NCBI GenBank assembly: GCA_017431105.1
Contig: JAFRLS010000003.1
Location: 1 to 64,000, forward strand
Length of the DNA: 64,000 nt
Source of the DNA: Candidatus Saccharimonadota bacterium
Lineage (GTDB): Bacteria; Patescibacteriota; Saccharimonadia; Saccharimonadales; Saccharimonadaceae
Direction of reading: 5' to 3'
This document shows, piece by piece, positions 4,715 through 6,922 of this stretch. The position numbers and the translations under genes were made by a program. Numbering within the stretch: the first letter of the stretch is position 1; every line of letters begins with the position of its first letter. Under the pieces are notes generated by a model. The model did no database searches, was not told the origin of the DNA, and saw nothing but the letters and a program-made list of their open reading frames with translations.

Positions 4715-5458
4715 ATGAAAATACTGCAAATAAATGGGTGGACAGGCAGAATCAAAGACGGCCTAAGTCGTTTTATCGCTGAAGGAGAATATGATGTTGT
4801 TTGCATGCAAGAGGCGATTTGGAGTGACGACTGCAACGAATTCCTGGAGCTATACGTTGATACTGTAGACAAAATACAAAGAGAAGCTGGCTATGAAAAT
4901 GTTTCTAAAGCCTCTAATTATGGGACAAAAATACTAAGGAATAATGCTCAATTTGAAATAGGTAATGTAATTTTAAGCAAAATTCCTTTTGCGAGCGTGG
5001 AAGAAAGAAATATTTTAGGACAATATACAGTAGTTACCGACATATCAAATTATAAAAACACAAAAGACCATAGTTATACGGCGCAGAAAGCTGTATTGAG
5101 TAATGGAATAGCAGTCGTTAATTATCATGGCTATTGGCAAAAGGATCCTATCGGGAACGAGACTACGATACAATGCATGCAGAGAGTAGCAAAGTTTATT
5201 AAAGAGGATTTTCGTCCTACTGTCATGTGTGGAGACCTGAATATCGTCTGCGAATCGCCAGCTATGCATGAATTGGATTTTATGCAAGACTTGATTCAAA
5301 TAAATCAAATAAAAACAACTTTAAGGAATATTCGTTTTATAAAGGATGTGGCTTGTGACCACATCTTGATTACCAATGATTTGAGGGCCGAGCATTTTAC
5401 AACGATTAATGCGCCAATTTCGGACCACATGGCTCTAACCGTCGATATAAGCCACTAA
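4715..5458 (+). CDS. Endonuclease/exonuclease/phosphatase family protein
   Basis: The 247-residue protein has the motifs of the EEP superfamily in order: the metal ligand Glu in CMQEA (about residue 33), GNVILSK (about 88), NYHGYW (about 140), CGDLNI (about 172), CDHILI (about 216) and the C-terminal SDHMALTVDI with the catalytic Asp-His pair. It lacks a signal peptide. Members cut DNA, RNA or phosphoesters; the substrate here is unknown, and it is distinct from the exonuclease III at the window end. TACAAT at 4702-4707 lies 7 nt before the ATG with no Shine-Dalgarno, so the transcript is predicted leaderless. Confidence 0.8.
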   Translation: MKILQINGWTGRIKDGLSRFIAEGEYDVVCMQEAIWSDDCNEFLELYVDTVDKIQREAGYENVSKASNYGTKILRNNAQFEIGNVILSKIPFASVEERNILGQYTVVTDISNYKNTKDHSYTAQKAVLSNGIAVVNYHGYWQKDPIGNETTIQCMQRVAKFIKEDFRPTVMCGDLNIVCESPAMHELDFMQDLIQINQIKTTLRNIRFIKDVACDHILITNDLRAEHFTTINAPISDHMALTVDISH

Positions 5459-5491
5459 ACTGGACCCATATTCAATATATACACGATCTGA

Positions 5492-5509
5492 TGGGGGCAA
5501 ATTGGGCAG
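5492..5509 (+). repeat. 18-bp direct repeat, copy 1
   Basis: TGGGGGCAAATTGGGCAG is repeated perfectly at 6006-6023. Weaker similarity extends about 15 bases to the right of both copies. The two copies bracket the candidate RNA gene at 5580-5945. Confidence 0.8.
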
Positions 5510-5544
5510 ATATTGACACTATAATAAAAAAAAACAAAAAAGTA

Positions 5545-5573
5545 TTGACATTTTAATGTATATATGCTATAAT
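5545..5573 (+). promoter_or_regulatory. Consensus promoter of the candidate RNA
   Basis: TTGACA 5545-5550, a 17-nt spacer, TATAAT 5568-5573, with extended -10 TG at 5565-5566. No Shine-Dalgarno or sensible reading frame follows for 370 bases. Confidence 0.85.
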
Positions 5574-5579
5574 GTAACC

Positions 5580-5945
5580 ATGGCTCAAATGCCATTGCTC
5601 AAATGATGCTTCGGCGTCAGATGGGCCCTATATTCATACTCAAATGATGCCTCGGCGTCAGATGAGTATCTCCAAATGACACCTCGGTGTCAGGCGGGGT
5701 CCAACTCAAACAATTGCCTTCATATTGTCCTACGAAGGAAAAACAATTGAGAAAGATTGAGTAGAATATTCGGACACTCTCCACCTTTGCCGAAAGACTG
5801 GAGCAGTAATTTTACAAAAGGGTAAAGTAAACCAAACCCAGAGAAGTACATCAAGGCAAGGCTCTCGAAGCTAAATGGATGTGAACGTCTCAACCCCCGC
5901 AGGTTCGACCTGCAATAGCCCCCGCACCCTGCGGGGGCTTTCCCT
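5580..5945 (+). ncRNA. Candidate structured non-coding RNA (about 365 nt)
   Basis: The unit runs from a perfect promoter to a perfect 10-bp GC terminator (5917-5939) and holds no gene. Its 5' third has three tandem hairpins of one design, at 5597-5626, 5636-5669 and 5670-5699. Each has a lower stem, a small A/G-rich internal loop and a 6-bp upper stem capped by TTCG or CTCG. Stems differ by compensating changes: the upper stem is TGATGC/GCGTCA in two and TGACAC/GTGTCA in the third, and lower stems are GCTCA/TGGGC, ATACTCA/TGAGTAT and CTCC/GGGG. Near the 3' end, CCCCCGCAGG at 5894-5903 could pair with 5928-5937 and compete with the terminator stem. It lacks the RNase P core GAGGAAAGTC and tRNA-like ends of tmRNA. 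Function unknown. Confidence 0.65.
5917..5945 (+). terminator. Terminator of the candidate RNA
   Basis: Perfect stem AGCCCCCGCA / TGCGGGGGCT, loop CCC, then TTTCC. Confidence 0.9.
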
Positions 5946-6166
5946 ATATTAAGCTTTATTATCAAAAAAACGGCTTTTAAGACCGAATAATCTCATACTT
6001 TTTAGTGGGGGCAAATTGGGCAGGCATTAAAAAACTATAGAGAAGAAATAATGGATAGATTGGTGAATTTATAAACTATCAATTTATATACGTCAAGAAT
6101 TATCTTTTAGATATGCAATAATTATCTTCTTTTATCTTTCAGATCATAAACAAAGCATAGAAAGTA
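5946..6166. other. Intergenic stretch; possible short minus-strand transcript
   Basis: No reading frame. On the minus strand, TTGACG (6098-6103 region), 17 nt and TATAAA face a short hairpin with a T8 run at 5966-5990, which would give a transcript of about 100 nt containing the 18-bp repeat. The hairpin has a mismatch and the promoter is not perfect, so this is weak. Confidence 0.3.
6006..6023 (+). repeat. 18-bp direct repeat, copy 2
   Basis: Perfect second copy of TGGGGGCAAATTGGGCAG (first at 5492-5509), 514 bp apart start to start. Confidence 0.8.
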
Positions 6167-6195
6167 TTGACAAAAATAAGCATGTGTGGTATAAT
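6167..6195 (+). promoter_or_regulatory. Consensus promoter
   Basis: TTGACA 6167-6172, 17-nt spacer, TATAAT 6190-6195. It drives the gene at 6359 through a leader of about 155 nt. Confidence 0.85.
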
Positions 6196-6201
6196 ACAAA
6201 A

Positions 6202-6358
6202 ATAGGCTTTTTAAGCCTATGGAACTTTAAGAAGATGCGTTAAATTCTCCTTTAAGGAAATTTTGCGACTCGTTTTGCCTATCTATATGGTAGCCGAAAT
6301 GAGTCGCGAAAGCCGCTCAACAAATTTATTTTTAGGCGGTAATTCCGCCAAAAGAAGA
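6202..6358 (+). promoter_or_regulatory. Structured 5' leader of the 6359 gene
   Basis: The leader holds three inverted repeats in series: ATAGGCTT/AAGCCTAT (6202-6220), GCGACTC/GAGTCGC closing a 29-nt interior (6265-6307), and GGCGG/CCGCC (6335-6349). The last one sits just before the AAGAAG ribosome binding site. A leader this long and folded is unusual in this compact window and may regulate the gene. No known riboswitch class is recognised. Confidence 0.5.
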
Positions 6359-6922
6359 ATGATCATGGCAAAGATGGTAAAAATCCATAAGCAGGCTGGC
6401 ACTAGGAAAGACGCAGTAAGGATCAGCAAAGTCAGCGATATTCCGGAGTTTCTCAGAAGCTCCATCGATATTGCAGGCGATACGTTATACCTCACCTGTG
6501 TTGAAGGTAATGAAAAATGCCCCTTAGGTTCTGTCATCGGCTACGAGACTTCCGATAATACTCCGAGCGGTTATAACTGCTGGTGCATCGGAAACGCCGA
6601 GACCAACCTGATCGAAATCGACGGCGTCTTCTACAAGAAGGCTACCGTCATGCCGGCCATGGCAGTCACTGATGAATTTCCGGAATTTCTCGAAGGCGCC
6701 GATATCACTCATAATCCTGACGGATCTTGGTCTATCAAGACCGACTGGGGCGTAAGCACCGGTTTCCCTGGACAGGCATACTGGGTCAGATACGGAACCA
6801 AAGAGGATGAGACACCGGATGCCAATATCCTTACAAAGACGGAAAAGTCCTACAAGGACTACATCGTCTGTGATGGTGACGGCAACGATATCGGGTTCCT
6901 TTCCGAAATCGACCCCGCTTAA
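6359..6922 (+). CDS. Hypothetical protein (187 aa)
   Basis: I do not recognise this protein. ATG 6359 or ATG 6365 is preferred because AAGAAG precedes them and a long structured leader lies upstream; the in-frame TTG at 6263 falls inside a leader hairpin. The first 20 residues are basic (KMVKIHKQAGTRKDAVR), the rest is acidic with many Gly, Asp, Trp and aromatic residues and short motifs suggestive of beta structure (GYETSDNT, WCIGNAET). No membrane segment, signal peptide or catalytic motif is visible. Three Cys (VEGNEKCPLG, YNCWCIG) could bind a metal. Codon use is more GC-rich than the neighbours, which together with the flanking repeats hints at transfer. It has its own promoter and terminator. 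Confidence 0.65.
   Translation: MIMAKMVKIHKQAGTRKDAVRISKVSDIPEFLRSSIDIAGDTLYLTCVEGNEKCPLGSVIGYETSDNTPSGYNCWCIGNAETNLIEIDGVFYKKATVMPAMAVTDEFPEFLEGADITHNPDGSWSIKTDWGVSTGFPGQAYWVRYGTKEDETPDANILTKTEKSYKDYIVCDGDGNDIGFLSEIDPA

Follow-up and report, generated by a model that had tools for sequence, protein, structure and literature searches.

Repeated hairpins serve as protein-binding sites in small RNAs of the Csr/Rsm type, such as CsrB and RsmZ. The raiA motif, or ModT (RF03072), is found in bacteria as a structured RNA some 200 nt or longer, whose fold comprises several stems and two pseudoknots; it is possibly associated with protein, and its conservation extends over more than 2,500 species of Bacillota and Actinomycetota (PMC11706538). 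Tandem stem-loops of the stem-array type, the TIGR arrays that go with Tas proteins, have been reported in CPR bacteria (PMC12045711).

We analyzed one locus in a 64,000-nt stretch of a Saccharibacteria genome (G000), here called the window. Positions 5579-5945 of the window very probably form a gene in its own right, whose product is a structured non-coding RNA about 300-370 nt long that belongs to a genuine, stand-alone RNA family; its transcription is predicted. The RNA would be read from its own promoter and end at its own terminator. In these signals and in its several stems it resembles ModT, although the two pseudoknots of ModT have counterparts here that are only proposed. Unlike ModT, it is patchily distributed and occurs as tandem units in one genus, and RF03072 was not among its matches up to an E value of 5. 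The Csr/Rsm RNAs offer an analogy of working principle only, through their repeated hairpins; repeated GGA-loop hairpins are absent here, the conserved feature being an internal loop, and most units carry a single hairpin. TIGR arrays differ in that most carriers of the present RNA have a single hairpin per unit, and the Nop-domain protein (PF01798) was absent from all five carrier genomes (G000, G036, G010, G359, and G538) while archaeal controls were detected.

An earlier note on this DNA had described a perfect promoter and a perfect terminator bounding a region with no reading frame. The promoter matches the consensus at every position (Table 1), and the plus strand of 5579-5945 contains no open reading frame of at least 60 aa; an 81-aa frame on the minus strand was judged incidental. 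The terminator had been overstated in part: its stem is indeed perfect, but the tail after it is TTTCCCT with no long U run, and hence it was not listed by the terminator scan. U runs are longer in G036, G359, and G538 than in the window copy. For the full 367 nt, the folding energy is -127.7 kcal/mol (z -5.5), and none of 100 shuffles was equally stable.

Table 1. Features of the RNA locus and its flanks, in window coordinates
Feature	Position	Strand	Details
Direct repeat TGGGGGCAAATTGGGCAG, upstream bracketing copy	5492-5514	+	
Promoter TTGACA-17-TATAAT, TG before -10	5545-5573	+	12/12 consensus matches, sigma-70-type
14-nt direct repeat CCATNGCTCAAATG, twice	5578-5605	+	partial extra copies of the H1 5′ strand
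Hairpin H1 copy 1, UUCG loop	5597-5626	+	-15.4 kcal/mol, z -4.2
Hairpin H1 copy 2, CUCG loop	5636-5669	+	-17.4 kcal/mol, z -6.0; most like the single H1 in G036
Hairpin H1 copy 3	5670-5699	+	-14.4 kcal/mol, z -2.5; compensatory upper-stem changes; adjoins core
Core long hairpin, conserved loop UAUUGUCCUA	5704-5762	+	
P1 of core long hairpin	5704-5709/5757-5762	+	ACUCAA/UUGAGU here, GCUUAG/CUAAGC in G036
P2 of core long hairpin	5711-5716/5744-5749	+	
P3 of core long hairpin	5717-5721/5734-5738	+	
Possible pseudoknot PK1	5726-5776	+	complementary strands: loop UGUCC 5726-5730 with GGACA 5772-5776
Hairpin H4, conserved GCCGA loop region	5780-5802	+	read by eye
Small variable hairpin	5811-5826	+	
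AAGGC domain	5841-5891	+	by eye; GAGA/UCUC and ACAUC/GAUGU stems, AAGGCA...AAAUG internal loop, variable hairpin inside
3′ hairpin GCAGG-UUCGA-CCUGC	5899-5913	+	read by eye; GCGAGC/GCUCGC in G036
Terminator-like stem-loop, weak U tract	5917-5945	+	perfect 10-bp stem at 5917-5939
Direct repeat TGGGGGCAAATTGGGCAG, downstream bracketing copy	6006-6028	+	with the upstream copy, the only ones within 64 kb at ≤3 mismatches (0.06 expected)

The same note had singled out three tandem hairpins of one shape whose bases change in a paired way, and this observation was confirmed. Each copy of the hairpin, H1, has a lower stem of 4-7 bp, an internal loop of the AA(A)/GA(U) type, a 6-bp upper stem, and a UUCG or CUCG loop, with GGC on one side of the internal loop in the third copy. 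In the upper stem, UGAUGC/GCGUCA is replaced by UGACAC/GUGUCA, and the lower stem varies among the copies as well with its pairing kept. As a defining arrangement, however, the triple hairpin did not hold up: each unit that we found begins with H1, but this hairpin is present once in all of the others and three times only in the window copy. The 5′ end of the latter looks like a local expansion because a further partial repeat lies at 5578-5605. We rejected the idea that H1 is a box C/D or k-turn element, since its internal loop is symmetric and UGAUG varies in the homologues.

The conserved entity is instead a unit of roughly 300 nt. Its 5′ part consists of the 5′ hairpin, a long hairpin with an invariant UUGUCCU loop, and a downstream GGACA able to pair with that loop; its 3′ part consists of a GCCGA hairpin, an AAGGC...AAAYG domain, and a 3′ hairpin, after which a terminator closes the transcript. 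The core downstream of H1, which was absent from the earlier description, is the best conserved portion. P1 of its long hairpin is fully compensated in three lineages (ACUCAA/UUGAGU, GCUUAG/CUAAGC, and CUCUUGGUG/CAUCAAGAG) and is not evident in the sister-genus units. The UGUCC of the loop is complementary to the downstream GGACA, and neither varies among the units, which suggests a pseudoknot, PK1; the invariance of both strands in seven of seven units means that they carry no covariation information. A second pseudoknot, PK2 (loop GTAGGG with CCCTAC and equivalents), would form 6 of 6 pairs in each lineage and 4-6 of 6 in cross-pairings, but it is plausible only, because 27-65% of shuffles also yield a 6/6 partner within that stretch. 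The homologues' hairpin proposed to take part in it (GGGGC-loop-GCUCC) is missing from the window copy, which may be partly degenerate given this loss and its weak U tract.

Homologues were sought with BLAST and then with successive covariance models of two, five, and seven sequences that we built from Saccharibacteria relatives, a check that the earlier note had put forward. BLAST alone gave one convincing relative, G036, and the two-sequence model revealed a tandem pair of units in G359, a member of the same family but of another genus. When 84,980 species genomes were scanned with a pattern, a further contig, from rumen-type Saccharibacteria (L163), emerged that is very likely the same record as G538; of the 46 pattern matches in the genome collection, good model scores were confined to those from Saccharibacteria. 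The five-sequence model then found G538 and a diverged homologue in G010, and since the G010 match (E 7e-6) was made before that genome entered any model, it is an independent confirmation. With the seven-sequence model, the RNA was carried by 3 of 174 genomes of the genus (G000, G010, and G036) and 2 of 45 of the sister genus (G359 and G538), while 380 genomes of the phylum held nothing convincing beyond the window, the match in G847 being weak. Other weak matches, in G299, G402, G058, and G476, were discarded as resembling coding DNA and lacking the motifs. The carriers so far are five genomes of four distinct lineages, all Saccharibacteria, and full-length identity between lineages is 50-63%.

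The stems are kept across these relatives. In an alignment that was fitted to the model, so that pair counts lean toward it, and that comprises seven units of which four are close relatives, 93.7% of the cells for the 25 base pairs of H1, P2, and P3 were paired and 10 of the 25 pairs had changed on both sides; 0 of 500 shuffles reached these values. The covariation score was 0.379 vs 0.198 for shuffled alignments (0/500), and sliding the partner by 1-3 columns lowered pairing to 30-43%. Both G010 and the changes among the window's three hairpins agree with this result. In four other genomes the folds persist in relatives whose sequences have changed, so that comparison indicates that the shape is under selection, in line with the earlier claim of a selected structured RNA and now with covariation in independent homologues.

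A promoter-like region, TATTGAC...TGTGCTATAAT (TATTGAC...TGTGC(TATAAT)), precedes every homologue, with a degenerate -10 in G010, and each predicted transcript would start at or beside H1, or in the window beside the partial copies at 5578-5605. G359 and G538 each hold two complete units of ~300 nt, head to tail, with one promoter and one terminator. An insertion, TATTAGTATATTT, is common to the first units of both genomes and absent from the second units; thus, the duplication predates their split, and both units have been retained since. The earlier note had suggested that the RNA is perhaps a multi-copy protein-binding platform; repetition is found in two forms, of hairpins in the window and of whole units in the sister genus. 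Only the two sister-genus genomes, which share the downstream neighbor, have neighboring proteins in common at equivalent positions, and no protein partner or common neighbor gene was found in the carriers.

By the test of Rfam 15, the RNA family is new. The search, which the earlier note had also named as a check, gave no match at or above a family's gathering threshold for the window RNA or its homologues and only rRNA and tRNA elsewhere in the window; a permissive scan of 5400-6100 returned only weak, unrelated matches. The statement that the RNA does not match RNase P, tmRNA, SRP, or 6S RNA is borne out. RNase P RNA (RF00010) is found on two other contigs of the bin (C41 and C9), and ARAGORN reported no tmRNA in the window, where a sub-threshold mt-tmRNA match lies upstream of the RNA only. 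As a kind, orphan structured bacterial RNAs have precedents, e.g. raiA/ModT (PMC11706538). We found no paper on a comparable structured RNA family of Saccharibacteria in the open-access literature.

Several further observations concern the genomes themselves. The two RNase P RNA genes (G000:C41:13871-14214 and G000:C9:1030-1385) in one small genome, with an estimated contamination of 7.7%, indicate that the bin is probably mixed. Positions 1-111 of the window are the 3′ end of 16S rRNA, and since no 23S match follows within 64 kb, the rRNA genes of this genome seem unlinked. Downstream of a second perfect consensus promoter, at 6167, lies a leader whose hairpins are very stable (6200-6356, z -5.4) and which has no Rfam match; it precedes the gene for a 188-aa protein (6356-6922) with no Pfam or PADLOC match. 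A search of 80 genomes recovered this protein in only three: G000, G010 (58% identity), and, as a fragment, G045. In G010, its homologue is flanked by two copies of another RNA-like intergenic element (L238, G010:C20, minus strand 6390-6690 and 5075-5390), which are 80% identical over aligned columns and nearly identical in their last ~200 nt. The element has a stem-rich conserved part and a terminator-like end; it has no Rfam gathering match, and a hairpin between the copies gave weak microRNA-like matches.

As an overall explanation, we favor a stand-alone structured RNA family that acts in trans with a protein, with a probability of roughly 0.5. We infer an accessory, trans-acting structured RNA that is probably protein associated, because the fold rather than the linear sequence is kept, duplicated hairpins or units raise the number of copies of one folded site, and no neighboring gene is constant. 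Such an RNA would act as an RNA-protein particle or a protein-binding RNA. H1 with its conserved AA/RA internal loop would be a putative, repeatable binding site; the core downstream would hold a conserved shape, its invariant UUGUCCU loop probably pairing with the downstream GGACA; and a multi-stem 3′ domain with its AAGGC/AAAYG internal loop would complete the molecule. For the protein-partner mechanism taken by itself, whose basis is the repetition and the conserved internal loop, we consider the odds about even.

The same RNA could instead be a trans-acting antisense sRNA whose unpaired UUGUCCU and GCCGA loops pair with mRNAs while the hairpins only stabilize it, a role that would suit its independent promoter and terminator, its narrow and patchy distribution, and its strongly conserved loops. 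We consider this unlikely: the UUGUCCU loop has its complement inside the RNA in all units, and the whole multi-domain fold is kept at 50-63% identity, whereas antisense sRNAs usually show less conservation. Far more improbable is a cis-regulatory leader, either riboswitch or attenuator, of the downstream gene. A terminator-like stem does end the RNA, and 5894-5903 can pair alternatively with 5928-5937; however, the conserved, co-directional downstream gene that marks such leaders was not found, as this gene differs between lineages, is convergent in G359 and G538, and in the window has its own perfect promoter at 6167. Because the neighbors differ and the next gene is convergent in two genomes, we read the locus as a stand-alone RNA gene. 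We give just as little weight to a diverged form of a known RNA (RNase P, tmRNA, SRP, 6S, a TIGR stem array, or a type III antitoxin RNA). The size range fits, CPR bacteria are reported to have TIGR stem arrays (PMC12045711), and tandem hairpins recall type III antitoxin repeats, but no homologue has an Rfam match, RNase P is located elsewhere, and the five carriers lack a Nop-domain protein; most units have a single H1 and are thus not guide or antitoxin arrays.

The flanks of the gene raise the question of mobility. The repeats that bracket it in the window are identical over 18 nt (72% over 46 nt), and bracketing repeats of the same kind occur in G036 and of a different kind in G538, with none seen at the G359 or G010 loci. 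Since the window-type repeat is also found without the RNA in G006, it belongs to the intergenic repeats of the genus, and it may aid recombination. Further copies of this repeat lie in L026 (3019, 4050, and 4677) and L240 (5043 and 5368), between neighboring genes, with a layout (AAAAAATCGGC...GCCGA...ATAATCTGGTGGGG...AATTG...TATTAACA) reminiscent of cassette boundaries. A PbeA-like defense helicase (L026 4883-7542, E 3e-186), with a small gene before it, lies just downstream of the RNA gene in G036. The RNA could be cargo or a working component of an element that moves or recombines, serving that element and owing its patchiness to movement; its rarity in both genera, the direct repeats in three carriers, the differing neighbors, and the position of the G036 copy upstream of a defense gene would all fit. 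We nevertheless think this improbable, to much the same degree as the antisense role. The carriers have no recombinase or other neighbor in common, the genus repeat exists without the RNA, the sister-genus genomes share their downstream neighbor, no match was found in the phage or plasmid records searched, and the pattern matches in IMG/VR were chance. Matches to stricter patterns in viral contigs were rejected as coding DNA or as having no covariance-model match.

Within the favored reading of a trans-acting, protein-associated RNA, we tentatively raise the possibility that the RNA is pseudoknotted and forms a categorically new bacterial class. It would be an accessory RNA-protein particle in Saccharibacteria, with its binding-site dose tuned by duplication of the 5′ hairpin, as in the window, or of the whole 300-nt unit, as in the sister genus. 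The analysis also provides a covariance model for metagenome searches. Saccharibacteria, which live on other bacteria, have very small genomes, and a multi-domain RNA that is conserved in a few of them, repeated in two ways, and absent elsewhere presents a concrete, testable RNA gene.
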